A stretch of DNA of 32,000 bases, taken from the NCBI GenBank assembly GCA_001512545.1, contig LFSI01000049.1:1-32000 (forward strand). Direction: 5' to 3'. The notes under the pieces are model-generated. The model was not told the DNA's origin. It searched no databases and worked only from the letters and a program-made list of their open reading frames with translations. Source of the DNA: Clostridia bacterium DTU065. Lineage in GTDB: Bacteria; Bacillota; DTU065. The translations under genes and the position numbers were made by a program. Below, piece by piece: positions 2,466 through 29,461 of this stretch. The first letter of the stretch is position 1; each line of letters starts with the position of its first letter.

Positions 2466-3890
2466 ATGATGAAGAAGACGTTGGTTATTGTCGGGCTGCT
2501 CGTTTTGGTTTCGACTTTGGCGCTCGCTGTTTTCAAGTACGAAATCCCGTGGCAAAAAGAGCACTTAACAGCAGATCCCAGCGGCAGGATCACTCTTTCC
2601 AAATCCTTTGTTTTCAAAGTCCTGCCCGAGTCCACGGAAAATGGAACGGAAATTTGGGTGGGCCTACCTACAGAGAACACGAAGGTGCAGAGTGCAAGCT
2701 ACTTAAAAGACGGTCGGTTGATACCGCTCACGTTCAAGCAGAGGAGTTCCGGTGGAGAGTATCAGGTTATTTTTGACGAGATTCCCCCGATTTTGCCAGG
2801 TGAAAGCTTGGAGATCCACTTCACTGCTTCAATTCCCGACCTCATCTACTGGCTGAACAAAAAGGAACTGGACAAAAGTGCCGGGGAGCAGAGGGTTTCA
2901 CTGTCCTACATTCCCGCTTGGTGGGAAGAAGCTGTAGTGGGCGATCTGACAGTGGAGTTCAGCTTCGGTCCAAGTCTGGAACTTGAAAGCGTACAGTATG
3001 CGAAAAAAGAGCCCACCTGGATAGATAGAACGCCTGAAGGCGTAGCGATCGGGTACAGGTACCAGAACGTTCCCAAAGATACCAAGCTCAACCATGCTCT
3101 GGTGCTGCCAAAAAGCTACTTTTCAGCGGGCTTTGAACCGCAAAAAGACTGGCTCAGCGCCGGGCAGATCACCCTTATTGTGGGTATAGTGGGAGCCTTT
3201 GTGGTTTTCCTGGGATTGCTCGCTGCAGCTTTGACAAAAGTCGAGCGCTACAGCACCCCAGCTGCCTACATCCAGGGCAAAGAAGCTTTTACCAGCTTTG
3301 ATCCGGTGGAAACTGCGCTGTTTTTCAACGTCCCCGGAGACGTGTTGGTGAAGCTGATCATCATGGGGCTCATGGATAAAAATGTGATCAAGATGACTTC
3401 CTCCGGTGAACTCAAGAAAGAGACCACTTTGGAAAGCTTGTCCTGGTACGAGAAGCTGTTCCTGGAGTCGGTGGATGATGAGGTCAACATCCTTCCCGAC
3501 AAGTGGGAGGAGTTCTGCAATAAAACGTTTGACCAGCTCAAGAAGATGCTCGGCGGCTACTGCGGAATGCAGACCAAAACGTACTACCAGAAAAAGCTCA
3601 CAGAGCTCTACGATGATCCCAAGGCAGATCCAAGGTGGAAGGTTCTTAAAGACTACTTGGATAAAAAAATCCCTGAGAAAAAGCAGGAAGCCAGAGGCTA
3701 TCAACCTGCGTACTTGGAACCGTACTTTCCCTTCTTCTACTTCAGCTTTATCAACTCGGACATGGAAGCAAAGCGGAGAGCGGCTTTCACCGGCGCTTTC
3801 ATAGGCAAAAGCGGCACGGGACACGGAGGCGGAAGCAGCTGTGCCTGCGCATGTGCCTGCGCCTGTGCGAGCAGTGGAGGGTGCACATAA
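2466..3890 (+). CDS. DUF2207-like predicted membrane protein with C-terminal Cys-Ala repeat tail
   Basis: Start MMKKTLVIVGLLVLVSTLALA after GAGGCGGG RBS; extracytoplasmic beta-rich region; TM segment ITLIVGIVGAFVVFLGLLAAAL; cytoplasmic region with VETALFFNVPGDVLVKLIIMGLMDKNVIKM; C-terminus GKSGTGHGGGSSCACACACACASSGGCT. Confidence 0.75.
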   Translation: MMKKTLVIVGLLVLVSTLALAVFKYEIPWQKEHLTADPSGRITLSKSFVFKVLPESTENGTEIWVGLPTENTKVQSASYLKDGRLIPLTFKQRSSGGEYQVIFDEIPPILPGESLEIHFTASIPDLIYWLNKKELDKSAGEQRVSLSYIPAWWEEAVVGDLTVEFSFGPSLELESVQYAKKEPTWIDRTPEGVAIGYRYQNVPKDTKLNHALVLPKSYFSAGFEPQKDWLSAGQITLIVGIVGAFVVFLGLLAAALTKVERYSTPAAYIQGKEAFTSFDPVETALFFNVPGDVLVKLIIMGLMDKNVIKMTSSGELKKETTLESLSWYEKLFLESVDDEVNILPDKWEEFCNKTFDQLKKMLGGYCGMQTKTYYQKKLTELYDDPKADPRWKVLKDYLDKKIPEKKQEARGYQPAYLEPYFPFFYFSFINSDMEAKRRAAFTGAFIGKSGTGHGGGSSCACACACACASSGGCT

Positions 3891-3891
3891 A

Positions 3892-5163
3892 ATGAAAGCC
3901 GCAAGAAGGATGCTCTTTGCAAAGGTAGATGGCAATAACTGGCACCTCCGCCGTGAAAACGGCGGAGGAGCGCTTATTATTAACGGAAGTAAAGTAATCA
4001 AGCTGAACCGTACGGCCTTTGATTACGTGTGGTCCTACCTCAGGTGGAAAAACCGGGACAATCTGGCTGCCCTTTTCGTTGCAGCAAAATACCGACTGAG
4101 ATTCAACAAGGCCAAAAGCGACTGGCAGGATCTAAAGCGAAGTCTCTTTCTCGGTGCGGAAAACTGCTGCGAAGCATCAGGTCTTCGAGCAGAATCTGAG
4201 GAAAAGGAACCTGTTGCTCCCATCCGCGTTGACCTAGCCCTCACCTATCTCTGCAACAACGATTGCTTCCACTGCTATGCAGGAGGCAGCCGGAAAACCC
4301 AGGAGCTCACCACAAGCCAGTGGAAAACCGCACTGAACAAGCTCTGGGACTTTGGCGTTCCCCAAGTAGCCTTCACCGGAGGGGAATCGCTGTTGCGGCA
4401 GGATCTCCCGGTTTTGGTAGCTCATGCCAAAAAACTGGGGATGATCGTCGGGCTGATCACTAACGGCAGGCTCCTCACCAAAGACAAGGTCACAGAGCTC
4501 GAGAATGCCGGTTTGGACTTCGTCCAGATCACTATAGAGTCCCACGAGGAAGCTGTACACAACCGGATGGTGGGGAGAGATGCCTTTTCGGAGACCATTT
4601 CGGGGATCAAAAACTCCCTAGACTCTTCTCTGAAGGTGACCACCAACACCACCATGACTGTCTTGAATGCAAACACAGTTTTAGATACAGTAAAAATTTT
4701 GTTGGAAATGGGAGTAACACATATCGGACTTAATGGTCTTATTAGGGCACAGAGAGGCATCGGGAAAGAAGGATTGTCCCCGATGGAGCTAGAAAGTATC
4801 TTGGATCGTGCAAAAACCCTGTGTGCTGAGTTTGGCGCAGAACTAATCTGGTTTACGCCAACTTGCTACAAGGACTTCAATCCTCTGAAGGAGAGTCTGG
4901 GGACAAAACGCTGTTCTGCAGCGTCTACAGTCTTGGCCATTGAACCTGACGGTCGAGTTATCCCCTGCCAATCGTACTTTCAGGGCATCGGCAGTATCCT
5001 CTCTGATCCGCTGCACAAAATTTGGCAGCATCCACTAGCACAGTCTCTACGAAGGCGGGAGTGGTTGGATGACGACTGCAAAAACTGCAGCCACCTACCG
5101 GCCTGCGGAGGAAGCTGCCCGCTAGAAAGTGCAGCACAAACACTACAATCAAAAACGATGTAA
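3892..5163 (+). CDS. Radical SAM/SPASM-domain protein with N-terminal PqqD-like region (candidate peptide maturase)
   Basis: CNNDCFHC (CxxxCxxC) cluster motif, FTGGESLLR, C-terminal SPASM-type Cys pattern CQSYFQ...CKNCSHLPACGGSCPLES; N-terminus GGALIINGSKVIKLNRTAFDYVW is PqqD-like; ATG 3892 with RBS GGAGGG (3876-3881), 1 nt after the preceding stop. Confidence 0.85.
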   Translation: MKAARRMLFAKVDGNNWHLRRENGGGALIINGSKVIKLNRTAFDYVWSYLRWKNRDNLAALFVAAKYRLRFNKAKSDWQDLKRSLFLGAENCCEASGLRAESEEKEPVAPIRVDLALTYLCNNDCFHCYAGGSRKTQELTTSQWKTALNKLWDFGVPQVAFTGGESLLRQDLPVLVAHAKKLGMIVGLITNGRLLTKDKVTELENAGLDFVQITIESHEEAVHNRMVGRDAFSETISGIKNSLDSSLKVTTNTTMTVLNANTVLDTVKILLEMGVTHIGLNGLIRAQRGIGKEGLSPMELESILDRAKTLCAEFGAELIWFTPTCYKDFNPLKESLGTKRCSAASTVLAIEPDGRVIPCQSYFQGIGSILSDPLHKIWQHPLAQSLRRREWLDDDCKNCSHLPACGGSCPLESAAQTLQSKTM

Positions 5164-5193: not shown

Positions 5194-6060
5194 ATGAATA
5201 GAACTTATCTATTAATCCTACTTTTTACAGCCTTAATACTATCCACAACTGCATATGGCGACGGCTCAAACCCAACAGCCAGTGACGCGGCACAAACAAT
5301 GCATCTACTGGATGAGGTTGTTGTCAAAGGTTCGGAAAATCTCCGAAGCATGAGAATTATGGAGATCGACACTCCAGTTTTCATCAGGGGAACCGACGAT
5401 GACCAGGTGACGGTCAAGCTGTGGTCGGTAAAGACAGGCACAGCTGAGATGAACCTTCGCTATGAGATTGTCGGTGGCGAAGTGTGGCTGTCGCTCAGAA
5501 AGCCCGTCGGGGAATTAGGAGCAGCGAAAAATACCGCGCTTTTGGTCACTGACGATGCCTCTAGTAGTTTAGAAGAACTCCTTTTGGATTGGGACCTCGA
5601 AGATTTGGAAGTCGAGTTTGTAGCCGAAATCACCATGCCAAAATCCATGAATGTGGTTTTAGGCGATGCGGTGATGAGGGCTGCGATCACGGGAGTTGCC
5701 GGCGTCGATATGAAGGCCGGACAAGGAGACTTCACCCTTGCAGACATCACCGGTTTTGTGAGGGTGCGCAACAACGCGGGGAGTTTGAAACTGAAAAACA
5801 TCACCGGCGACGTGTGGATCAGCGATAAAGGCGGTGCCATCTCCGTAGAAAACGTCACAGGTCTGGTTACCATCGACAGCGACTTCGATGTCGCTCTAAG
5901 GATTCAGGATGTAACCGGCGACGTCACAATAGCTTCTAAGCTAGGCGGTTCTGCAGAGGTGGCAAATGTCAGAGGCAACGTCTCGGTGTTTTCAAGAGAG
6001 CCCATAAAGACGGCTTGCATCGGAATAACCGGAAAACTCATCGTTCCCGAGAATTTTTAG
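5194..6060 (+). CDS. Secreted beta-strand-repeat protein (DUF4097-like)
   Basis: Signal peptide MNRTYLLILLFTALILSTTAYG; repeated ITGxVxVxNxxGxxxVxNVTGxVTI pattern; RBS TTGGAGGG; 30 nt after the radical SAM gene. Confidence 0.6.
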   Translation: MNRTYLLILLFTALILSTTAYGDGSNPTASDAAQTMHLLDEVVVKGSENLRSMRIMEIDTPVFIRGTDDDQVTVKLWSVKTGTAEMNLRYEIVGGEVWLSLRKPVGELGAAKNTALLVTDDASSSLEELLLDWDLEDLEVEFVAEITMPKSMNVVLGDAVMRAAITGVAGVDMKAGQGDFTLADITGFVRVRNNAGSLKLKNITGDVWISDKGGAISVENVTGLVTIDSDFDVALRIQDVTGDVTIASKLGGSAEVANVRGNVSVFSREPIKTACIGITGKLIVPENF

Positions 6061-6151: not shown

Positions 6152-6961
6152 ATGAAAAACAGATTTTGGTTCTGCACTGTGTTGGTTTTCGCACTACTCG
6201 CAGTAGCAATCAGCGCAGAAACTTTGCAGGCTGTAGTCCGCCTGCCTGACAACAACCCTGCTCCGTTTGCAACGGTAACAGTTGGGGACAAGGTTTTTGA
6301 AGCCGATGCAGAAGGCAGAGTAACCCTAGAGGTACCTGCAGACGTCAAGACCGTAAAGATCACCTGGTTGGAGCTGACCGCTGAACTCCCAGTTTCCGCC
6401 AACCTGAAGTTCAAAAACAGACTGCTCTACGGTCCTCCATACATTAAAGAAGATTTCGTCGTCACCGGTCCTGATGTGTGGGAGTTCACCGATGATCAGA
6501 TTTCGGCACCGCTTGGTTCGGAGACCATGCTCTTTTACGAAGACGCTTTCGACAACATGGTTCTCAGAGCAAAGTACTCCATTACCAATCCGGAAAAAGC
6601 ACAGTGGTACTACCTCAGGTTCTTCATCCGTCTGTATGATCCGGGCTTCTGGGGCTACAGCGTGAACATGTCCGTTGTGAACGATCCCTACTTCGTTCGC
6701 TACGACGGCAACTGGGATCAGTACGTAGCAGCAAATATGACATTTTTCGGACCAAAACCTGCGGAAGGCAAAGAGTATGAACTGGTTATGTTTGCCAAAG
6801 ACGAGACCATCACCGTCTACCACCGCGATGTGGCAGGCAAGTATACCAAGGTTCATCAGTTTGTGGACAACTCTCCTGAAGCCTACTTTGACGGCGGTTT
6901 CGCCATCATGAAGAGCTACAGCGGTGCTACCATCAGAGAACTGGGCATCTTTGCCTACTAA
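6152..6961 (+). CDS. Secreted protein of unknown family, copy 1
   Basis: Signal peptide MKNRFWFCTVLVFALLAVAISA; shares RLPDxxxAPFATVTxGDKVFxA, NRLLYGPPY, GPDVWExT, DDF/AFDNMVLRAKxS and WYYLRFxIR with 20428..21249. Confidence 0.6.
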   Translation: MKNRFWFCTVLVFALLAVAISAETLQAVVRLPDNNPAPFATVTVGDKVFEADAEGRVTLEVPADVKTVKITWLELTAELPVSANLKFKNRLLYGPPYIKEDFVVTGPDVWEFTDDQISAPLGSETMLFYEDAFDNMVLRAKYSITNPEKAQWYYLRFFIRLYDPGFWGYSVNMSVVNDPYFVRYDGNWDQYVAANMTFFGPKPAEGKEYELVMFAKDETITVYHRDVAGKYTKVHQFVDNSPEAYFDGGFAIMKSYSGATIRELGIFAY

Positions 6962-9252: not shown

Positions 9253-10548
9253 TTACTCCTGGATTAGACCCTTGATAAACCGGGCATACTCTTTCTGCTT
9301 TCTTGCCAGCTCGTCATTGGAGATCTCAGCGGCCTTGAGAAGTTCCGCTTTCGGATCTGCACCGGTTAGGACAACGGCCCGTGCAGCGTTGGTGAGGTTC
9401 CTCCTGCTGACAACCAGTCCCAAAGCAAACAGCGGAGCTCTGGATTGCTCTGCTTGGATGTTGAGAATTCTGCGGTGAGATTCCGGCAGGAAAGTAACGG
9501 AGTTGTAAGCTTCCATGTTGGCGGGCTGGTAGATGATCTGCAGCTTGTTCCAGACCATATCGGCAAACTCCCTTTGGACCTCTGCACTGAGCCACCACTT
9601 AAGGAACTCGAAAGCTTCCTCTTTGTGCTTTGAGTTCTTGAACATTACGTACGGATTTCCACCGATGTAGGCCGCGTGGTTGATAGTGCCGTCTGGCTGC
9701 TTCTTTCCGGGAATCAGGCAGATATCCCATTTGCCTTTCAGCTGCGGTGCGCCTAAGGTAATATCCGAATAGCCCCAGCTGATGCCCACTATGAAGGGGT
9801 AATCCCCTCTGCTTATGGCTTCGATGAACGGCACGCTCTCAAGAGGTATTCCGTGAACGGTAAACAACTCCATAAACTCTGTAAATGCGGCGATGGCTTC
9901 AGGTGTGTCCCAAGTCGTTCTGGTGCGCTCTTCGTTCACTTCACGGATGCCGTGCTGCCACATGAAGATGTATGCACCAAACCAATCGGGAGTCAGGTAC
10001 CAGGAACCCGAACCGATGTTCATGTCCCTAGCCTGCATCTTCGGCAGAAGCGCCCTGGCCTCGTCCCAAGTTGCAGGTACCTCCCAGCCGTTTTCTGCAA
10101 AGATATCAGTGCGGTAGTAGGTTAGGGTTTGGCCAAAACTAGAGTTCAGTCCAAAGCCGGTATTGTAATAGGTCAGGGACTCGTTGAGACCGGGAAAGGC
10201 CGTGGCAAAGAGCTTGTCGTACTCCTCTCCGAACATCTCCCGCATGTCTACCAGTCCGCCGCGAATGCCGAACTCAAGAGGCCACTCCGAGCCAATGACA
10301 GCAAGATCCGGGGTATCGTTGCTGGCCATAGCTAAGAGCACCTTGTTCCACTGGTCATCGCCTCCGGGGATGACGCTGAGGTTCACCGAGATCCCGGTCT
10401 TTGGCGTAAACCGCTCTTCAATAAAGCTCTTCATAATCGCCAGCTGTTCGTTGCTAGATGCCTGCCAGATCTCCAGGGTGACAGCACCGGCTAGGCTTGA
10501 AGTTATAAGCACTACCACGATGAGAACCAATAATTGCTTTTTTGACAT
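9253..10548 (-). CDS. Extracellular solute-binding protein (ABC sugar-binding type), paralog 1
   Basis: MSKKQLLVLIVVVLITSSLAGAVTLEIWQASS...; FxxKTGISVNLSVIPGGDDQWNKVLLAMASNDTPDLAVIGSEWPLEFGIRGGL; GKWDICLIPGKKQPDGTINHAAYIGG; RBS GGGAGGAAGAG before ATG at 10548. Confidence 0.88.
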   Translation of the reverse strand: MSKKQLLVLIVVVLITSSLAGAVTLEIWQASSNEQLAIMKSFIEERFTPKTGISVNLSVIPGGDDQWNKVLLAMASNDTPDLAVIGSEWPLEFGIRGGLVDMREMFGEEYDKLFATAFPGLNESLTYYNTGFGLNSSFGQTLTYYRTDIFAENGWEVPATWDEARALLPKMQARDMNIGSGSWYLTPDWFGAYIFMWQHGIREVNEERTRTTWDTPEAIAAFTEFMELFTVHGIPLESVPFIEAISRGDYPFIVGISWGYSDITLGAPQLKGKWDICLIPGKKQPDGTINHAAYIGGNPYVMFKNSKHKEEAFEFLKWWLSAEVQREFADMVWNKLQIIYQPANMEAYNSVTFLPESHRRILNIQAEQSRAPLFALGLVVSRRNLTNAARAVVLTGADPKAELLKAAEISNDELARKQKEYARFIKGLIQE

Positions 10549-10754
10549 ACTCTCTTCCTCCCAAGCATTGATCTGCAAAATCAGTATAGCACAACTGCCA
10601 GTACCAAAAGCAGGAAAAACGCAGAAAAAAGAAGCGATTTGCAGCAGGGTAACTCTAGAAAAAAGGGAACTTTTGCAGTAAAGTTATGTGCCTTTTCAGG
10701 CAACTCGGCAGAAAACGGCTGCAAAAAACAGCAAGAACTGGGGGAGAGACAAAG

Positions 10755-13328: not shown

Positions 13329-14603
13329 GTGAAGAGGATTGCTGTAATCATTTTGGTTATTTTGGTATTAAGCTTTATCGTTTCTGCGGAGAAAGTGGTT
13401 CTCTGGACGTGGTACGAAGGGGCCCTTGGTGCAATCCTCCGAGATCTGATTAACAACGATTTCACACCTACTACAGGGATCGAAGTGGAAGTCTTGACAG
13501 TGCCGATTCAGGATATTGTGACCAAGCTGATCATGGCCCACATCGGCGGCGACGCTCCTGATGTGGTGGAGCTCTACTCCAGCCAGGTTGTAGAGTTAGG
13601 AGTAAGAGGTGCTCTCCTAAACCTTAGGGAGTACCCCGACATCCAGAGCGTGATCGATCAGGTTTATCCCCAGTACCTCATCGGGCTTTCTTACAGAAGC
13701 GCATTGTTTGGCCTGCCAGGAGAAAACAACTGGCTCCTTACCTACTACAGAGAGGATCTTTTTAACGAGTTCGGTCTGGAAGCGCCTGTAACATGGGGTG
13801 ATGTCAGAACCCTGTCCACGAAGCTCTTAGCCCGGGATCTGGGGATGTACTACAGCTTCGTAGGCGATGCCATCACCGTAAACACCAACCGGCTTTTGCC
13901 GTTTCTGTTCCAGAGGGGAACAGATCTCTATACTCCGGACGGCAGCGGTTCAAACCTCGACTCACCTGAGGCAATTGCAGCCTGGATCGACTACTGCAAC
14001 CTGTATACCGAAGGGAAAATGCTTCTAGAAGACCCCATCGAAACCACTTTCGTGTCCGGCGACACACCACTTTTCTTCGGACAGAGCTACCGCTACTCAC
14101 AGATTGAAAGGATCGCGCCGCATCTTATCGGCAAGTGGTCTATTAGAGAGCTTCCGGGAACAGTCAAAAGCACTGGAGAGATCGACAACACCAACTCCAC
14201 AACCTCGCTGTGCTGGGCGATTCCCGCATCCACAAAGCAAAAGGACGCTGCGTTTGAGCTGCTTAAGTGGCTGACTTCCAGCGACTTTACCGGCAAGTTC
14301 ATGCTCCTTGCCAACCAATCCTCGGAGAAGTGGCGCTTGTTTTTCGCCACCAAAGACACCTTGGATAACGCGCTCTTTCCCGAAGGGCATTTGGAGATTG
14401 TCCAGAGGGGACTTGTCAACAGCCGCGTACCTAGAGCTGTTATCGGAGGCTACGTTGCCGATCGCTACGTAGATTTTGCCTTTAACAAGGTTGTGGTGCA
14501 GGGTGCAGATCCAGAAGAGGCGATCAGAGAAGCTGCCTCCGAATCGACTAAGGAGATTCAAAAGAAGCTTAAGGAATTTGCCAGGTTCATTGAAAAACTC
14601 TAG
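13329..14603 (+). CDS. Extracellular solute-binding protein, paralog 2
   Basis: MKRIAVIILVILVLSFIVSAEKVVLWTWYEG...; IGGDAPDVVELYSSQVVELGVRGALLNL; RBS GGGAGGGG; closest in-window relative is 24174..25457. Confidence 0.88.
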   Translation: MKRIAVIILVILVLSFIVSAEKVVLWTWYEGALGAILRDLINNDFTPTTGIEVEVLTVPIQDIVTKLIMAHIGGDAPDVVELYSSQVVELGVRGALLNLREYPDIQSVIDQVYPQYLIGLSYRSALFGLPGENNWLLTYYREDLFNEFGLEAPVTWGDVRTLSTKLLARDLGMYYSFVGDAITVNTNRLLPFLFQRGTDLYTPDGSGSNLDSPEAIAAWIDYCNLYTEGKMLLEDPIETTFVSGDTPLFFGQSYRYSQIERIAPHLIGKWSIRELPGTVKSTGEIDNTNSTTSLCWAIPASTKQKDAAFELLKWLTSSDFTGKFMLLANQSSEKWRLFFATKDTLDNALFPEGHLEIVQRGLVNSRVPRAVIGGYVADRYVDFAFNKVVVQGADPEEAIREAASESTKEIQKKLKEFARFIEKL

Positions 14604-17577: not shown

Positions 17578-17653
17578 TGGTCGGAGATTTGGGGGTTAAT
17601 GGGATTTCAACTCTAAATAATTGGCAAACTTTAGGGGGAGGGAATGTCAAAAA

Positions 17654-18940
17654 ATGAGACTGAAAAAGGTTTTACTTGCAGGACTTGTGGTTTTAGTTTT
17701 ATGCTCGGCTTTTACCTCTGCCGCAACCAAGATTACTGTGTGGATGACTTACGGCGGCACCATGGGCGAAGTGGTTGCCAGGTTAATTGAAGAAGACTTT
17801 ACTCCTAAAACCGGTATCGAGGTGGAGTACGTTCCGATGCTGGCAACTCCAGATTTAATGACCAAGCTAATTCTGGAGATTCTCGGCGGTACTGCTCCTG
17901 ATGTCTGCTCCCTTGAGGGCTGGCAGGTTATCGAGCTGGGAATGCGCGGCGCCCTTGAGACCATGAATCAGTTCTCCGATTACCAGCAGATAGTGGATAG
18001 ATTTTTCCCTGGTTTTAGCGGCCAGTTTATCTACAACAACAAGGTCTATGCACTGCCGGGCGAATCCAGCTGGACGCAAACCTATGTGCGGACCGATATC
18101 TTCCAGGAGCTAGGTCTGGCTCCTGCAGCAACCTGGGATGAGATTCCTGCAATCATTACCAAACTGAAGGCCCGCGACATGGAGTTTTACTATTTCACCG
18201 GCGGTGGTCAGCCCCGTACTTTGATGAACTTCACTTTCCAAAGGGGACACGACATCTTCACTCCAGACGGTCTGGCTTCCAATCTGAACCATCCAGAAGT
18301 CATCAAGGCATTTACCACCTACACCGACCTCTACACCAAGTACGGTGTACCTCTCGAAATGCCCGACTACCAGACGTTTACAACTGGTGAAGTACCATAC
18401 ATGGTCCACCTCCACTATATTTACGGTTTGATCGACAATGCCGCACCCCACATCAAGGGCAAGTGGGAGCCTGTGCATACTCCCGGTACACTGCAGGCTG
18501 ACGGTACGATCAACCACGCCGTGCCAACATCGTCATTTGGCTACGTAATTCCTAAGTACAATCAGAACCAGGCAAAGAAGGACGCTGCTTGGGAGTTCCT
18601 TAAATGGTATACCTCCGACGAGACCCTAGCGAAAATGCAGAAGGGCTTCTTCGAAGGACCGGACCGCTGGGTACTGGCGTTCGGTACTAGAGACAGCTTC
18701 CAGAGCGCACCGTTCTACGAAGAGCACCGCGAACTCATTAACGAGGTCGTTGCAGCAGGACGAAGCATGACCTCTATTCCCGGCGGCTATTCCACCTACC
18801 GCTATATCGACTTTGCCTACAACCAGGTGGTTCTGCAGGGTATTGATCCTAAGGAAGCAATGGAGCAGGCTGCAAAAGACTCCACCGCTGAACTGGAAAG
18901 AAAGAGGAAGGAGTTTGCCCGCTTCCTAGTAGATATGTAA
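17654..18940 (+). CDS. Extracellular solute-binding protein, paralog 3
   Basis: MRLKKVLLAGLVVLVLCSAFTSAATKITVWMTYGG...; EDFTPKTGIEVEYVP; ILGGTAPDVCSLEGWQVIELGMRGAL; GGGGGAGGG upstream. Confidence 0.88.
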   Translation: MRLKKVLLAGLVVLVLCSAFTSAATKITVWMTYGGTMGEVVARLIEEDFTPKTGIEVEYVPMLATPDLMTKLILEILGGTAPDVCSLEGWQVIELGMRGALETMNQFSDYQQIVDRFFPGFSGQFIYNNKVYALPGESSWTQTYVRTDIFQELGLAPAATWDEIPAIITKLKARDMEFYYFTGGGQPRTLMNFTFQRGHDIFTPDGLASNLNHPEVIKAFTTYTDLYTKYGVPLEMPDYQTFTTGEVPYMVHLHYIYGLIDNAAPHIKGKWEPVHTPGTLQADGTINHAVPTSSFGYVIPKYNQNQAKKDAAWEFLKWYTSDETLAKMQKGFFEGPDRWVLAFGTRDSFQSAPFYEEHRELINEVVAAGRSMTSIPGGYSTYRYIDFAYNQVVLQGIDPKEAMEQAAKDSTAELERKRKEFARFLVDM

Positions 18941-19054: not shown

Positions 19055-20329
19055 ATGAAAAAAGTTTTAGCAGTTTGGGTGTTAATACTGCTTGTCGGTG
19101 TCGTCTGCTCAGCTGTAAAGATCGAGTTTTGGATGGTTGGCTGGAGCAACGAAATGGCCAATGTGGCCAAGTCCATTATCGACACCGAGTTCACGCCACA
19201 GACGGGGATCGAAGTAACCATCGTGCCCCTTGCTTGGGGCGACTACTATCAGAAGAGCCTTTTGGCTATAGCAAGCCGCGACACTCCCGACATCTTCAGT
19301 TTGGGGTCGGAGATCGCGGACTTCGCACTGAGGGGCGGCCTCATCGACCTTGCAGCTTTTAAGCCTGAGGAGTACGCCGAACTGGAAAAAGGGATTTTCA
19401 CCTCGGTTATGGGACCATTCTCGTTTAAGACAGCACGCTTTGCACTTCCTATTGACGTCAGCGGCTACATTGCAGTCTACAGAACGGACCTTCTGGCAGA
19501 TCTGGGAATGGGCATCCCTGAGACCTGGGATGACATAAGAAGTTGGCAGCCGAAGGTCCTGGCAAACGGCATGACCCTTGCCTACACCAACTTTGAAGAT
19601 ATGTGGGGTGCCTATACCCACATCACCCAGAACGGAGGCCAGTTCTTCGGTTCCGACGGTTTCTCCAGCGCTTTGGATCGGGAAGAGTCCGTTGAAGGGT
19701 TCGTCAATTACATCGAGCTGTTCACCGTCCACCAGCTTCCCAAAGTCCTTGTTGGTCCGGAGCCGTTTATCAGGGGAGAGCAGCTGAGCTATGCCGACGG
19801 CTTGTGGGTTTACGGTACGCTGAGCCAGTCTGCTCCGACCATTCAGGGTAAGTGGCAGGTAGGGCTGATCCCTGGAACCCGCAAAGACGGTAAGGTGAAC
19901 CACGGCTCCTTTGCAGGGAGCACCCTTCTTGGCATCTCGGCGTTTTCCAACAAGAAGGAAGAAGCTTGGGAGTTTCTCAAGTGGTTCCTCTCGGCAGACG
20001 TTCTCCAGCGCATCGCCAACGGCATCATGGCCTCATCCAACGGGTGGATCTGGCTTCCGGCAAACAAAGAGGCTATGTCTAACGTGAATCTGCCGGTGGA
20101 TGTCAGAGATATCTACTACAGGCAGATCGATGAGAGCTATCCGGTTCCCTACGCGGTAAATGCGTTGGTTCAGTACCGCTTCGTTACGCTGGCCATTCAA
20201 AAATGCGTCACCCAAGGAGCCGATCCTCGGGAAGAAATCCTGAAAGCCGCGGAGGACATGAACGAAGAGATGGCCAGACGCAAGAGAGAGTACAGCAGGT
20301 TCCTCGAGTCTCTACAGATCGGCGGTTAA
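19055..20329 (+). CDS. Extracellular solute-binding protein, paralog 4
   Basis: MKKVLAVWVLILLVGVVCSAVKIEFWMVGWSNE...; TEFTPQTGIEVTIVPLAWGDYYQKSLLAIASRDTPDIFSLGSEIADFALRGGL; AAAGGGGG RBS. Confidence 0.88.
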   Translation: MKKVLAVWVLILLVGVVCSAVKIEFWMVGWSNEMANVAKSIIDTEFTPQTGIEVTIVPLAWGDYYQKSLLAIASRDTPDIFSLGSEIADFALRGGLIDLAAFKPEEYAELEKGIFTSVMGPFSFKTARFALPIDVSGYIAVYRTDLLADLGMGIPETWDDIRSWQPKVLANGMTLAYTNFEDMWGAYTHITQNGGQFFGSDGFSSALDREESVEGFVNYIELFTVHQLPKVLVGPEPFIRGEQLSYADGLWVYGTLSQSAPTIQGKWQVGLIPGTRKDGKVNHGSFAGSTLLGISAFSNKKEEAWEFLKWFLSADVLQRIANGIMASSNGWIWLPANKEAMSNVNLPVDVRDIYYRQIDESYPVPYAVNALVQYRFVTLAIQKCVTQGADPREEILKAAEDMNEEMARRKREYSRFLESLQIGG

Positions 20330-20427: not shown

Positions 20428-21249
20428 ATGAAAAGAAGCAGTTACTTGTTGGTTTTGATGTTGGTTTGGGTCGTTGCAGCATTTAGCGCCAGTGCAGCTA
20501 CACTGTCGGCACGAGTTGTTCTTCCCGACGGTAGCGGTGCTCCATTTGCCACGGTGACCATCGGCGACAAGGTCTTTACCGCATCAGAGACAGGTAAGGT
20601 GGAGATCACTTACGATGGCGAGAAGACCGCTTTAGTCAAGTGGTTAGAACTTGAAGAGGAGATCGCCATTGGTGCAACTATGAAGTTCTCCAACAGGCTC
20701 TACTACGGTGCTCCATACGATGCAAACGACTTCGTTACTTGGGGTCCTGACATCTGGGAGATCACCGAATCGGCAATGTACTGCCCAGGTGGACTGGGCA
20801 ACGAAGCACAGATTTTCCTGGACGACTTCTACGACAACTTCGTGATGAGAGCGAAGTTTTCTGCTGAAGCAGAGAGCCAATGGTTCTACCTCCGCTTTAT
20901 GATTAGAGGTGTTGAACCAGGCTTCAACGGCTACGGTGTAACCGTTGCCATGCATCCTGCCGACCAGTCTTCGTTCGCCCGCTTCAACGGTAGCTGGGAC
21001 AACTACGATGTGATAACCGAGGATATCTTTATCGGTCCTGCTATGGATCCAGGCGTAGAGGATGAGATTGTAGTGTTTGCAAAAGACGAGCACATTGTGG
21101 TTTATCTCAGAAACGCAGGGCAGAAGGACTACATGAAGGTAGTGGACCACATCGACGATGATCCCGGAGCCTTCTTCGATGGCGGAGTCGGTATTCTCAA
21201 CAGCTTCACCGTTGTGGAGATCACCGAGTTTTCCGTGTTCAGATACTAG
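20428..21249 (+). CDS. Secreted protein of unknown family, copy 2 (paralog of 6152..6961)
   Basis: Signal peptide MKRSSYLLVLMLVWVVAAFSASA; VVLPDGSGAPFATVTIGDKVFTA, NRLYYGAPY, GPDIWEITE, LDDFYDNFVMRAKFS; RBS AGAGGGGTG. Confidence 0.6.
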   Translation: MKRSSYLLVLMLVWVVAAFSASAATLSARVVLPDGSGAPFATVTIGDKVFTASETGKVEITYDGEKTALVKWLELEEEIAIGATMKFSNRLYYGAPYDANDFVTWGPDIWEITESAMYCPGGLGNEAQIFLDDFYDNFVMRAKFSAEAESQWFYLRFMIRGVEPGFNGYGVTVAMHPADQSSFARFNGSWDNYDVITEDIFIGPAMDPGVEDEIVVFAKDEHIVVYLRNAGQKDYMKVVDHIDDDPGAFFDGGVGILNSFTVVEITEFSVFRY

Positions 21250-24173: not shown

Positions 24174-25457
24174 ATGATCCGTAAGCTGTCTTTTTCGGTT
24201 CTGGTTTGTGTGCTCATGCTAGCCTTTAGTGTCGGTGTAATTGCTGAGAAGATTACCGTTTGGACCTGGTACGACGGAACTTTAGGCGCTTCATTCAAAC
24301 AGCTTCTCCAGGAGGACTTTGTAGCCAAGACCGGTATAGAAGTAGAACTTTACACGGCACCTGTGGCAGACATAACAACTAAGCTCCTTTTGGCTGTTAT
24401 TGGCGGAGACGCCCCCGATGTAGTTATGCTCTACTCCAACCAAGTGGTAGAGCTGGGCGTTCGCGGTGCTCTCCACAACATCGTAGGGATGCCCGAACTT
24501 GAGTCTACCTTTGAAATCATGCTTCCTGGTCTTATGAGACAGCTTTCCTACAAGAGTGCGGTTTTCGCCCTCCCAGGTGAAGTCAACTGGACATGGACTT
24601 ACTACCGTACAGATATCCTGCAAGAAGTCGGTGCTGAAGTACCGAACACTTGGGACGAGATGAAGTCCCTGTCCACTAAGCTGAAAGCCAGAGACATGGA
24701 TGTTTACTACGACTATCAAGGGGATGTTGCAGCCCGCTCAACTGGAAGACTTCTGCCGTTTGTCTTCCAGAGGGGAACCGACATCTACACCGAAGATGGT
24801 ACGGCTTCCAACCTAACCGACCCAAGGGTAGTCGAAGGCTTCAAAGAACTGGTAAGCCTTTTCAAAGACTACAAATGGCCCCTTGAGAACCCCGGTAGTA
24901 CTACGTTTGTGGACGGTGCAACGCCTATCCAGATCTATCAAAACTGGTACTACTCAGTTTATTTAAGATACCCACAGATAAGCGGGAAGTGGGATATTGC
25001 AGAGATTCCCGGCACCGTTCAAAGCGATGGCACCATCGATAGAACTAACACCGGTAAGATGCTGACCTGGTCGATCACCTCGTCTTCGAAAAATAAAGAA
25101 GCTGCTGCTAAGTTCTTAGCTTGGGCAGTTTCTCCGGAGTTCACGTCCAAGTTCTCGCAACTTGGTTACGACTCGCCGGAAAAATGGCGCCTCTTCTTCT
25201 CAACCAGAGACGGTCTGGACCGCTCCGGTTTCCCGGAAGAACATATGCCAATGGCTCAAGCAGCTCTGGAAAAAGTGAAGATGCAGAGGTCTGTTGTTGG
25301 AGGGTTAGTAGCCGACCGCTATATCGACTTCGCGTTTACCACCGTAGTGCTGCAAAACACAAGCCCTGAAGAAGCCCTCAAGACAGCAGCCAAGGACTCT
25401 ACCGATGAGATACAAAGGAAGATTAAAGAGTTCAGCAGGTTCATTGCAAGTCTATAG
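24174..25457 (+). CDS. Extracellular solute-binding protein, paralog 5
   Basis: MIRKLSFSVLVCVLMLAFSVGVIAEKITVWTWYDG...; IGGDAPDVVMLYSNQVVELGVRGALHNI; RBS AAAGGGGG. Confidence 0.88.
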   Translation: MIRKLSFSVLVCVLMLAFSVGVIAEKITVWTWYDGTLGASFKQLLQEDFVAKTGIEVELYTAPVADITTKLLLAVIGGDAPDVVMLYSNQVVELGVRGALHNIVGMPELESTFEIMLPGLMRQLSYKSAVFALPGEVNWTWTYYRTDILQEVGAEVPNTWDEMKSLSTKLKARDMDVYYDYQGDVAARSTGRLLPFVFQRGTDIYTEDGTASNLTDPRVVEGFKELVSLFKDYKWPLENPGSTTFVDGATPIQIYQNWYYSVYLRYPQISGKWDIAEIPGTVQSDGTIDRTNTGKMLTWSITSSSKNKEAAAKFLAWAVSPEFTSKFSQLGYDSPEKWRLFFSTRDGLDRSGFPEEHMPMAQAALEKVKMQRSVVGGLVADRYIDFAFTTVVLQNTSPEEALKTAAKDSTDEIQRKIKEFSRFIASL

Positions 25458-25569: not shown

Positions 25570-26709
25570 TTACTCTAAGCTACCGTAGATTGCCACATCA
25601 CCGAGGATCATGCCGGTGGATTTCAATTTGCTTTTCACATTGATGGCTATGGGCACCGTCTTAAGCAGGTCGTGCCAGTGATCCCGGACTTGGTACCAGA
25701 CCTTAGGGTGATATGCTCTGAGGAGCTTGCCGAAGCCAACCGGATCTGTACCCAGGTTCCTGATGGCACGAAGCGCTTTTTCCGCTTCATCCTTTACGTG
25801 TTGTGCTTGTTTTTCGGCAAGTTCCTTCCACTGGTCAGGGTGGGCCGGATTGAGGTTTGCCGTCTGCTCGGCAAGATTGCTGACAACTTCAATTGTCACC
25901 TCAAAGCCAATCTTGTCTCCGTCGACCTTGGTCTTGATTTTGGTCTTTGAAGATAGGATCTCCAGAGCGAGTTTTTCATCCTGAGGAGCTTTCAGGACGA
26001 TGATGCCGCTTTTTATGCGGTCCATCAGCCAGAGGAGCCCTCTGGACTCGAGAGTATCGATGCTGCCAACATACTGTTCGCCGCGAAACAGAGCCGTACC
26101 CTTGATTTCCATGAACTCTTCGTCTTCCATTTTAGTGGTTCCAAAGAGAGCGCAGGCAAAGTCCCGTCCTTCATTACCCAGGCAGATCAGAGCTTGTGTC
26201 AGCATGGAGTGAACGCACTTGCTAAGACCCTTTTGGCTCTCGATCATAGCGTTGATGCCCTCTCCAGAAGGAACGTCCTGGGAGACTTTGGCTTTTAGAA
26301 GTTCTTCTGGGTCTTTTTCCGTGACGGCAATCCAGATGATAGGCCTAATCTCAAAGTTTCTTGACAGAAAGTCGATGAGGCAGGCAAGCCCCTTTTCCAA
26401 TGCTCGCTCGCTGAAGATCATAGTCTGGAGGTATCCCCAGTAGAGTCGTTTGGGACTGTATGATAGGGCGTTTCTGATGGCATCAAACATAGTTGCACCT
26501 GAGGAATAGATGGTAGTTACCGGGTCGGTTCCGGTTTTTTCGGCGACGATCTCCGGTTTAATGATCTGGATGGTTAGATTATACTTAGTGCCGTCATAGT
26601 CGACACCTACAGCTGAGGCTAAGGCTAGTTCTTCAATCTCGTATGAACTCCAGCAGCCAGACGTAAAAGTAAGTATAAGGCAAAAGAGAGCGATCAACAG
26701 CTTTTTCAA
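25570..26709 (-). CDS. gerC: Ger(x)C family germination lipoprotein
   Basis: Lipobox FTSGC; CWSSYEIEELALASAVGVDYDGTKYNLTIQIIKPE; downstream partner of GerA with 4-nt ATGA overlap. Confidence 0.9.
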   Translation of the reverse strand: MKKLLIALFCLILTFTSGCWSSYEIEELALASAVGVDYDGTKYNLTIQIIKPEIVAEKTGTDPVTTIYSSGATMFDAIRNALSYSPKRLYWGYLQTMIFSERALEKGLACLIDFLSRNFEIRPIIWIAVTEKDPEELLKAKVSQDVPSGEGINAMIESQKGLSKCVHSMLTQALICLGNEGRDFACALFGTTKMEDEEFMEIKGTALFRGEQYVGSIDTLESRGLLWLMDRIKSGIIVLKAPQDEKLALEILSSKTKIKTKVDGDKIGFEVTIEVVSNLAEQTANLNPAHPDQWKELAEKQAQHVKDEAEKALRAIRNLGTDPVGFGKLLRAYHPKVWYQVRDHWHDLLKTVPIAINVKSKLKSTGMILGDVAIYGSLE

Positions 26710-28286
26710 TGGTTCTCATCCTTAGTGTTCTGTTTTTGGTGGGTGAGGCGGAACTCAGCGCGTTTTCTGTCTTTGGCAAACTGCCGGGGACGGAACACCC
26801 TGTTCCAGATGGGAGTTCTAATGACGGTGTCGCCGAGCTGGTCGGGGATAACCGGCGACAGGGGAGAAAGGTAGGGGACGCCGAAGGAGTAGAGTGAGGT
26901 TAGGTAGAGTGTGGTGACGATCACCCCATAAGCGAGTCCGTAGAACCCCATAAAACCTACGAGCAGAAGGAAGACGTATCGAAGGAGAGTTGCCGACTCT
27001 GCCAGCGGAGTTACAACGAAGTTAGCGATAGCAGATAGGGAGATAGCGATAACCATGGGAGCCCCGACAATGCCTGCGTTCACCGCAGCTTCTCCCACAA
27101 CCAGGGCACCTACAATGTTGACCGCACCTCCGGCAACCCCCGGAATCCGCAGAGAAGCTTCCCGCAGGATCTCGAAGAAGAATGCAAGAACCAGTGCTTC
27201 GACAATCGCCGAAAACGGTACGGCCATTCTGGCAGCGGCAATGGTCATGGCCAGCTTGTTGGGCAACAGCTCCTGGTGGAACGACGTGATCCCTACATAA
27301 AACGGGACGGTGAGGATGCTCACCAAAAACGAGAACAGCCGCAGCAACCTCACAGAACTCTGAAAGACCCAGGGGCTGGCGTAGTCCGAAGGTACCTGGA
27401 AGTTCTCGATAAAAAGGTGGGGGACGGTGAGAACAAAAGGCGTACCGTCGACGATAATGGCAACCCGTCCGCAGAGTATTTTGCTTGCAACCTTGTCCGG
27501 TCTTTCGCTGTAGGCCACAACGGGAAAGATGGAGTGGGGAGCATCAGAGATGAGCTCTGTGAGCATGCCGGAGGTGATCAGGGCGTCGATTTTAAACGAG
27601 TTCAGTCGCCTTTTGACCTCTGCCACGATCTCCGGCCGCACAATGTCTTTGAGGTAGGCGATGCAGATCTTAGTTTTGGTTTGGACGCCCACTGTAGTCA
27701 TCTCCAACACCAAGTTGGGACTGGAGATGGTCTGCCTAAGGAGGGCGGTGTTGATTCTGACATCCTCAACAAACCCAGCTCGAGGGCCTTGGGTTGTTCG
27801 CTCGGAATCGGGTTCTTCGATGGCCCTGGTTTGCAGTTTGCGATGCCCGAGGATTAAGGCGTCTTCGCACCCGTCGATAAACAGAGCAGTGTCGCCTTGG
27901 AGGACGCACTCAACAATCTCATGCATCTTTTTTTCGGTCTTAACTTCAACCGAGAGGAGCAGGTGCTTTGCGATGGCCTCCACGTAGCTGAGTGGCGTAT
28001 CTTCGATGTTTTTATATAACTCCTCTTGAACTAAGGGGCGAATCACTCTGATTCCGAGCGCTTCTTTGTCGACCATTCCTTCCACAAAAAAGAGGGCAGC
28101 ACGGGTTTTACCCCCGGGACCTATGCGCAGCTCTCTAGTGGAGACGTCGGGACTCTCCCTAAACTGGCTTTTGATGTAGTTTAGCTTCTGGTCCAGGGAC
28201 TTTGTGGGAGGCGGCAGTTTCGGAGCAGGGTCTTCTTGAGGAAAGAGCAGCAGTGAGTCCAGCTTGTTTTTTATCCAGCGCAGCAC
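26706..28286 (-). CDS. gerA: GerA-family spore germination protein
   Basis: VEGMVDKEALGIRVIRPL, LPNKLAMTIAAARMAVPFSAIVEALVLAFFFEILREASLRIPGVAGGAVNIVGALVVGEAAVNAGIV; GTG at 28286 preceded by AGGAGGTGATCC. Confidence 0.93.
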   Translation of the reverse strand: MLRWIKNKLDSLLLFPQEDPAPKLPPPTKSLDQKLNYIKSQFRESPDVSTRELRIGPGGKTRAALFFVEGMVDKEALGIRVIRPLVQEELYKNIEDTPLSYVEAIAKHLLLSVEVKTEKKMHEIVECVLQGDTALFIDGCEDALILGHRKLQTRAIEEPDSERTTQGPRAGFVEDVRINTALLRQTISSPNLVLEMTTVGVQTKTKICIAYLKDIVRPEIVAEVKRRLNSFKIDALITSGMLTELISDAPHSIFPVVAYSERPDKVASKILCGRVAIIVDGTPFVLTVPHLFIENFQVPSDYASPWVFQSSVRLLRLFSFLVSILTVPFYVGITSFHQELLPNKLAMTIAAARMAVPFSAIVEALVLAFFFEILREASLRIPGVAGGAVNIVGALVVGEAAVNAGIVGAPMVIAISLSAIANFVVTPLAESATLLRYVFLLLVGFMGFYGLAYGVIVTTLYLTSLYSFGVPYLSPLSPVIPDQLGDTVIRTPIWNRVFRPRQFAKDRKRAEFRLTHQKQNTKDENH

Positions 28287-28290
28287 GGGA

Positions 28291-29406
28291 TCACCTCCTG
28301 GCTTTAGTCGATCTGTTTTTTTTGGCAGGCCCTTGCTTCTCCTTGACAAAAAAGGAGCGAATCACGCCGATTACAGGCAGTACAAACCCCATGATAAAGA
28401 GAAAGTACCGGATGAAGTGCCTGTCTGCCCAAGATAGCAGGGCGATGTTCAGTGGGAGCCTACTGGTGATGAGAACCACTACGACAAATAGCGGCAGGAT
28501 CAGCGTCCGGTGGGATCTCAGGTTAAACATTTGGGCGATGCATAGTACACTTGCGTAAAGAAACAGGGTAGTTGACACAAACCCGATGAAGTTGAGGGTT
28601 AGGGAGGTAATGATTTCGACGCGCATGACGTTTGCGCCGATGCTGATGTTCCGGGCAAAGGAAATGGCAGGAAAGAGCTGATTGGTAACACCGTCGCCAA
28701 AGATGCAGATGTTGCGCAAAGATGCAAAAAACACTATGCTAGATCCCAGCAGCACTCCCCGAAGAAGGCCTTTTTTTGCCTCTTTCGGGTTGTTAACCAG
28801 AGGGATAAACCACAGAAACAGCACCAGCTGACTGAAAGGCCAACCGATCACCGTAAACAGGGATTGCCAGAATTCTTGAGGGCGATCCGTTGCTAGGGGA
28901 AGAAGCAGCATAAAGTCCATGTCTTTTAAGGCTAGGACAGTGCTGAGGACGAATGACAGGATGCTGAAGACGATGATGAACACCGTTGTTCTGGCGATGG
29001 ACTCAAGCCCCAAATAGAGTGCAATCATGACCACCACCGCCTGGCAGATGATGATCACAATCTTGGGGGTCTCGGGCATCCCAAGGTTGGTAAAAGCCAG
29101 AAAGTCGTTGAAGCTGACCATGGCAGACAGCATAAAGAGGACAAAGTGGCTGAGGATGACCGCTTTGCCCAGGAAATCTCCGAAGAGGATAACAGCGTAG
29201 TCGGTAGGGCTTATCCCAGGGAACTTGCCTGAGAGGGAGTTGTATATCCAGCAGAGAAATAGCGCGTAGAGACCTCCTGTCAGGGACACAACCCAGCCTA
29301 GATGTCCGGCGTAGCTTGCCGGATCTATCAACAGCACGTTACCCATCAGCTGTGCTCCCACCATAAAGGCCAGCTGTTCACCGCTGATTCTCTGTTTTTC
29401 CACTAG
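28291..29406 (-). CDS. gerB: GerB-family endospore germination permease
   Basis: VEKQRISGEQLAFMVGAQLMGNVLLIDPASYAG, multi-pass; TTG start near 29406 after AAAGGTGGT (ORF open to 29454). Confidence 0.88.
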   Translation of the reverse strand, partial: LVEKQRISGEQLAFMVGAQLMGNVLLIDPASYAGHLGWVVSLTGGLYALFLCWIYNSLSGKFPGISPTDYAVILFGDFLGKAVILSHFVLFMLSAMVSFNDFLAFTNLGMPETPKIVIIICQAVVVMIALYLGLESIARTTVFIIVFSILSFVLSTVLALKDMDFMLLLPLATDRPQEFWQSLFTVIGWPFSQLVLFLWFIPLVNNPKEAKKGLLRGVLLGSSIVFFASLRNICIFGDGVTNQLFPAISFARNISIGANVMRVEIITSLTLNFIGFVSTTLFLYASVLCIAQMFNLRSHRTLILPLFVVVVLITSRLPLNIALLSWADRHFIRYFLFIMGFVLPVIGVIRSFFVKEKQGPAKKNRSTKARR

Positions 29407-29461
29407 CAACTTGATTACACCACCTTTAAGGGTCCTTTTTATCTTTAACAACAAGTGGTGG

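Follow-up and report, generated by a model that had tools for sequence, protein, structure and literature searches.

The window, a 32,000-nucleotide stretch of DNA, encodes a membrane protein with a cysteine-repeat C-terminus and, beside it, a radical SAM/SPASM enzyme (Table 1). We propose that the two genes form a dedicated substrate–enzyme pair, in which the enzyme modifies the cysteines of the tail, most likely by introducing thioethers (probability about 0.62). To our knowledge, nearly all described radical SAM/SPASM maturases produce small peptides; the enzyme family described here appears to act on the terminus of a membrane protein of full size and is kept together with its putative substrate across distant bacteria and archaea. 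Since the pair occurs in gut bacteria, Chloroflexota and archaea including the Asgard archaea, it apparently represents a widespread, undescribed protein-tail modification.

Table 1. Positions of the two genes, their domains and the following gene in the window
Feature	Position	Strand	Details
Cys-tailed membrane protein gene, 474 aa	2466..3890	+	ATG at 2466, stop TAA 3888–3890
Extracytoplasmic beta-sandwich domain, approximately residues 25–215	2538..3110	+	AlphaFold secondary structure, Foldseek
Transmembrane helix, residues 232–261	3159..3248	+	Positive charge after it; topology prediction and AlphaFold model
Cys-repeat tail CACACACACASSGGCT, residues 459–474, putative modification site	3840..3887	+	
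Radical SAM/SPASM enzyme gene, 423 aa, putative tail-modifying maturase	3892..5163	+	ATG 3892, stop 5161–5163
PqqD/RRE-like N-terminal domain of the enzyme, residues 7–87	3910..4152	+	Predicted 4 strands and 3 helices
CNNDCFHC (CxxxCxxC, radical SAM [4Fe-4S] cluster), enzyme residues 121–128	4252..4275	+	
SPASM auxiliary cluster domain	4912..5118	+	CX12GX4C (341–359) and CX2CX5CX3C (396–409)
Third gene, secreted DUF4097/toastrack-like protein	5194..6060	+	DUF4097 E = 0.0047, below cut-off

The C-terminus of the membrane protein is SSCACACACACASSGGCT, and its last letters in the window read GHGGGSSCACACACACASSGGCT. As the initial annotation had reported, the tail holds five Cys-Ala pairs and one further cysteine, six cysteines within 15 residues (residues 459, 461, 463, 465, 467 and 473), and a single base separates the stop codon of the membrane protein gene from the start codon of the enzyme gene. 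Among the 125 open reading frames of at least 60 residues in the window, a density of at least five cysteines per 15 residues was found only in this tail. A DNA pattern for (Cys-Ala)5 occurred once in the window and in none of 100 shuffled sequences, and a chance origin was ruled out by these two scans together. The tail codons were mixed (TGT GCC TGC GCA TGT GCC TGC GCC TGT GCG) and differed in every relative while the residues were constant, which indicates selection at the protein level and rules out an origin by microsatellite slippage. Relatives that were 63%, 53% and 38% identical, including one from another family of the same phylum, had the same or nearly the same terminal residues encoded by different codons, with the same enzyme adjoining. 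In an alignment of 22 proteins from Bacillota, Chloroflexota and archaea, the tail was nearly the only invariant part.

The association was quantified in approximately 1,140 genomes from five groups, with the samples drawn by the enzyme and not by the tail. The enzyme was present in 124 of these genomes, and 114 of the 124 also encoded a Cys-repeat-tailed membrane protein, nearly always adjoining. In the phylum of the window, the enzyme was found in 14 of 299 genomes and a tailed neighbour in 13 of the 14, the 14th enzyme lying on a broken 1.7-kb contig. The corresponding numbers were 22 of 249 genomes and 22 of 22 tails for Lachnospiraceae, 13 of 197 and 12 of 13 for Thermoplasmatota (the 13th locus was cut by a contig end), 18 of 251 and 17 of 18 for Chloroflexota (the exception, G997, has only a degenerate second-type homologue, described below), and 57 of 148 with a tail somewhere in the genome in 50 of 57 for Asgard archaea. 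No tail match was obtained for the enzyme-bearing Asgard genomes G789, G808 and G814, nor for G866, and a tail was present in 3 of 91 enzyme-negative Asgard metagenome-assembled genomes. These enzyme-only and tail-only genomes may reflect assembly gaps or tail variants. In enzyme-negative Lachnospiraceae, a tail within a gene was found in 0 of 227 genomes among the matches inspected, which are all but about 15 single short CACACA matches; single matches of this kind were mostly outside genes or internal to them. Fisher tests of tail against enzyme gave 6e-32 for Lachnospiraceae and 6e-28 for Asgard archaea without correction for kinship; the independence of the association rests on its spread over phyla and on free gene order rather than on these values. 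A scan of the whole collection with a tail pattern, used for finding loci and not for rates because out-of-frame matches are common in GC-rich genomes, placed the tail beside CxxxCxxC genes in Lachnospiraceae, other Clostridia, Methanomassiliicoccales, Thermoplasmatota, Heimdallarchaeota and Chloroflexi among the matches listed. Two patterns that the initial annotation had named as speaking against a pairing were thus not seen at large: enzyme-bearing genomes mostly have the tail, and tails without the enzyme are rare. Its mention of similar Cys-tailed proteins elsewhere was also right; the pairing recurs in both bacteria and archaea.

The enzyme and the tail remained associated despite free gene order. 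The tail gene was located 5′ of the enzyme gene in the window, Asgard archaea, Thermoplasmatota and Chloroflexota, and 3′ of it in Lachnospiraceae, family f49 and some Thermoplasmatota. The two genes were divergent at loci L377–L383, and the tail gene was remote in G804 (8.5 kb away) and in G781 and G802 (on another contig). At L042:2001–6120, one radical SAM gene was flanked by two Cys-tailed protein genes on opposite strands, where a single enzyme may serve two substrates. One Asgard lineage encoded a tailed protein SCACACACVSCACACAGGGR away from the enzyme (L384:1310–3076, L386:1–258, L387:3–218); these genes were at or near contig ends with unrelated genes adjoining.

Tails were distinguished by dialect: CACACACACAGGGR at the very C-terminus (CACACA...GGGR), CA/CVS repeats with a conserved AGC segment after them, and CHSACHSA repeats ending in CVSGG(A/F)R. 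These dialects follow the enzyme clades. In the enzyme tree, all 12 CHSA enzymes grouped in one clade (support 1.0); a separate clade (support 0.997) held the enzymes whose tails have the AGC extension. In Asgard archaea, 27 genomes combined a CA-type enzyme with a CA tail and 23 a CHSA-type enzyme with a CHSA tail, with no crossing. The distances between enzymes were correlated with those between membrane protein bodies (r = 0.89, 0 of 999 permutations). The two matched enzyme–tail dialects offer material for studying substrate choice by such enzymes. The co-occurrence and the dialect matching give strong genomic support to the proposal of the initial annotation that a full-length membrane protein is the substrate, at its tail, and we consider it very probable that the tail is modified. 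An improbable alternative is that the tail is an unmodified CxC string binding a metal or an Fe-S cluster, similar to metallothionein, while the enzyme acts elsewhere or uses the tail as a cluster ligand. CxC repeats are classical metal ligands, several Lachnospiraceae members of the family have zinc-ribbon matches, and in CteB a cysteine of the substrate binds the open auxiliary cluster (PMC6231123). The near-universal presence of the enzyme with the tail and the matching of dialects would, however, be unexpected if the substrate of the enzyme lay elsewhere, and no second gene family common to all groups was found at the compared loci.

The enzyme of the window matched the Pfam profiles Radical_SAM (E = 1.6e-24) and SPASM (E = 1.5e-9). 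The three cysteines of its CNNDCFHC site (Cys121, Cys125 and Cys128) were invariant among relatives, and the SPASM part contained cysteines at positions 341, 359, 396, 399, 405 and 409, without the final SPASM cysteine. Both cysteine sets had been correctly recognized from the sequence at the outset. The SPASM profile was matched by 21 of 21 enzymes, and the C-terminal cluster region of the Lachnospiraceae enzymes was reduced and Twitch-like. The PqqD profile was matched by 6 of 21 enzymes (best E = 9.7e-7) and not by the window enzyme itself. An AlphaFold model of the latter (pLDDT 81, pTM 0.84) contained an N-terminal domain of strands and three helices as in PqqD/RRE domains, and together with the matches of the relatives this bears out the PqqD-like N-terminus that had been annotated. 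SkfB was the top match in both a profile search (1.3e-32, followed by PqqE) and a fold search (7.6e-20, followed by SuiB, BlsE, CteB and PqqE) against solved structures. SkfB is a sactipeptide synthase. SkfB, SuiB and CteB are RRE–radical SAM–SPASM/Twitch enzymes acting on ribosomal peptides (PMC6231123). Membership in an existing NCBIfam maturase family was rejected, with scores far below the curated cut-offs for all models (SkfB, AlbA, StsB, PapB and others).

A thioether is the most likely bond, at odds slightly better than even, since the closest relative of known activity forms Cys thioethers and no residue of the tails other than cysteine is constant. Less probable by a clear measure is a modification without thioethers, for example epimerisation between cysteines, carbon–carbon bonds or cysteine oxidation. 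SPASM enzymes catalyse many outcomes, and the sequence similarity of the enzyme extends to PqqE, anSME and weakly to YydG. In 82 distinct tails, 99% of the residues following a cysteine were A, H or V and 97% of those preceding one were A, S or G, which would suit a residue-specific reaction; the spacers between cysteines were A, HSA, AHSS, ASS, AG, VS and few others. A class I methyltransferase gene (Methyltransf_11, 8.6e-26) was a member of a cluster present at 13 of 13 Asgard CA loci, 10 Chloroflexota loci and 5 Thermoplasmatota loci; at 24 of these 28 loci it lay within 500 bases 3′ of the enzyme (examples L367:5311–6087 and L390:3709–4467). It could methylate the tail or a product, so that several modifications would be possible. 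In contrast, the universal feature of the tails is the repetition of cysteine at a spacing that changes from 1 to 5 residues. This points to a reaction at cysteine and is at variance with the strict alternation required for alternate epimerisation, and the enzyme of the nearest solved structure is a sactisynthase. Some points also count against thioethers and the proposed pairing. Classical sactipeptide hairpins have a donor N-terminal half and an acceptor C-terminal half, whereas the alternating Cys-Ala tail has no separate acceptor block. The four enzyme-bearing genomes named above without a tail match, the three enzyme-less Asgard tails and the reduced cluster region in Lachnospiraceae are further points of this kind.

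The membrane protein of the window consists, in order, of an N-terminal signal or transmembrane segment, an extracytoplasmic beta domain, one transmembrane helix, a winged-helix-like cytoplasmic region and the disordered tail (AlphaFold pLDDT 68). The positive charge after the transmembrane helix places the C-terminal side inside, and a similar topology was predicted in nearly all groups examined. The tail should therefore be cytosolic, on the same side as the enzyme, in agreement with the initial annotation. Fold searches gave only low-scoring beta-domain matches that indicated no function (Foldseek: N-terminal beta domains of ribophorin I and M1 peptidases, TMq approximately 0.3). The tailed proteins were about 310–760 residues long. 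After removal of the tail and linker they still matched between groups, with BLAST values down to 1.7e-68 (3e-20 for the window protein against a Chloroflexota protein) and an hhalign probability of 100% (E = 8e-46, 363 columns). Judged by these comparisons, the membrane proteins of all groups are one family, remotely DUF2207-like. The window protein had no Pfam match, and its direct assignment to DUF2207 failed for want of a match above the gathering score; a whole-genome search with PF09972 gave 0 matches. DUF2207 matches in relatives were mostly sub-threshold (the best value was 1.8e-5, in a single relative; Lachnospiraceae reached 0.002), and TIGR04222 was matched weakly by 4 of 21 family members (best 5.9e-5). 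The links to both families appear real but weak. The earlier label of a DUF2207-like protein accordingly stands by way of relatives and topology, but no curated model accepts the window protein alone. We know of no assigned biochemical function for DUF2207-type proteins and of no Cys repeats in ordinary DUF2207 tails; the pairing offers a testable function for such proteins.

A further possibility, to which we give very little weight, is that the tail is the core of a ribosomally synthesized and post-translationally modified peptide (RiPP) on an unusually large membrane leader, and that cleavage of the modified tail sets free a small peptide. The enzyme has the architecture of a RiPP maturase, and one enzyme clade is accompanied by a conserved AGC..KDFY segment after the core that resembles a follower peptide. 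Against this, no protease or exporter common to the compared loci was found, the body of the membrane protein is conserved across phyla and in archaea and co-evolves with the enzyme, and the tail is predicted to be cytosolic.

For the dedicated pair, we envisage that the RRE-like N-terminal domain of the radical SAM/SPASM enzyme probably mediates binding to the membrane protein, whose flexible cytosolic tail would then be modified at its cysteines. The most likely bond would join the cysteine sulfur to a carbon of neighbouring small residues, in the manner of sactipeptide and ranthipeptide synthases acting on small peptides and of QhpD acting on a subunit of a protein. The resulting membrane protein would combine a sensor-like extracytoplasmic domain with an inner Cys tail that is covalently rigidified or competent for metal or redox chemistry. 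More tentatively, at somewhat below even odds for the reading as a whole, the tail would be a polycyclic thioether (or equivalent) structure that stays permanently in place as a protein-derived cofactor or a metal/redox switch, in at least two dialects read by matching enzymes; the system would be common to bacteria and archaea, Asgard archaea included, and would comprise a single-pass sensor-like protein and no secreted peptide. A stress or envelope role of the modified tail is only hinted at, by analogy with the deletion of a DUF2207 gene in Streptococcus mutans (PMC10457818).

The pair shares with the sactipeptide and ranthipeptide synthases SkfB, CteB and AlbA the domain order, the CX3CX2C motif, the auxiliary-cluster domain and an adjoining Cys-containing ribosomal substrate. 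Their substrates are small leader–core peptides, whereas here the putative substrate is the tail of a membrane protein with a folded extracytoplasmic domain; no short leader-bearing Cys precursor peptide was encountered, and the neighbour was a membrane protein in every intact case. QhpD, which introduces several thioethers into QhpC, the gamma subunit of quinohemoprotein amine dehydrogenase (PMC7876137, PMC8172795), is likewise a radical SAM/SPASM enzyme acting on a protein subunit and not on a free peptide product. QhpC differs in being a small leader-bearing subunit with Cys-Asp/Glu pairs, without a Cys-repeat tail or a membrane body. The CXXX-repeat radical SAM targets (NCBIfam TIGR04117) resemble the CHSA dialect in having a cysteine at every fourth residue. 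The CA dialects lack this CXXX spacing, TIGR04117 gave a sub-threshold match in 2 of 21 tailed proteins (E = 0.084), and no CXXX-repeat maturase was among the 25 best NCBIfam models for the enzymes. The DUF2207 protein SMU.243 of S. mutans has a large outside N-terminal domain, a transmembrane segment and an inside C-terminus with a Gly/Ser-rich end (PMC10457818), a layout of the DUF2207 family (PF09972/PF20990) that the window protein shares.

The closest published parallel is the pairing of MNIO (DUF692) enzymes with TIGR04222 membrane proteins, in which C-terminal Gly/Ser/Cys low-complexity tails also occur beside a Cys-modifying enzyme (PMC12452194). That enzyme class is unrelated and the tails are predicted to be periplasmic, in contrast to the radical SAM enzyme and the predicted cytosolic tail of the present pair. 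The association is also looser, with MNIO absent from a third of TIGR04222 genomes (PMC12452194), whereas the association between radical SAM enzyme and tail is near-strict. Taken together, the two kinds of pairs suggest a general use of low-complexity tails in such membrane proteins as platforms for Cys chemistry. Searches of the open-access literature returned no description of the pair itself and nothing relevant on the tail motifs, on Cys-Ala repeats or on DUF2207 together with radical SAM enzymes.

Additional homologues and neighbours were observed at some loci. Most Chloroflexota encoded a second, shorter homologue (approximately 385 residues, PqqD–radical SAM) near the main enzyme (L332–L348, e.g. 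L332:4766–5926). In G997, the homologue of this second type was alone at its locus (L350), with PAQ replacing PCQ and no tail gene. Several Asgard loci contained a gene similar to D-serine dehydratase/alanine racemase close 3′ of the CHSA-type enzyme (L379:291–1442). In the window, the DUF4097-like third gene was kept directly 3′ of the enzyme in three of the four loci of its clade that were compared, and it is uncertain whether it is part of the system.

Further downstream, the window contained five paralogous extracellular solute-binding proteins of the ABC sugar-binder type (9253–10578, 13329–14603, 17621–18940, 19055–20329 and 24174–25457). They span 16 kb, and no open reading frame of at least 150 residues for an ABC permease or ATPase was seen among them. 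A paralogous pair of secreted proteins of approximately 270 residues (6152–6961 and 20428–21249) had a CarboxypepD_reg-like start and belonged to no curated family. By reading, three adjoining minus-strand genes at 25570–29454 were GerC-, GerA- and GerB-like and resembled a gerA-type set for spore germination, a likeness that suggests a spore-forming lineage.
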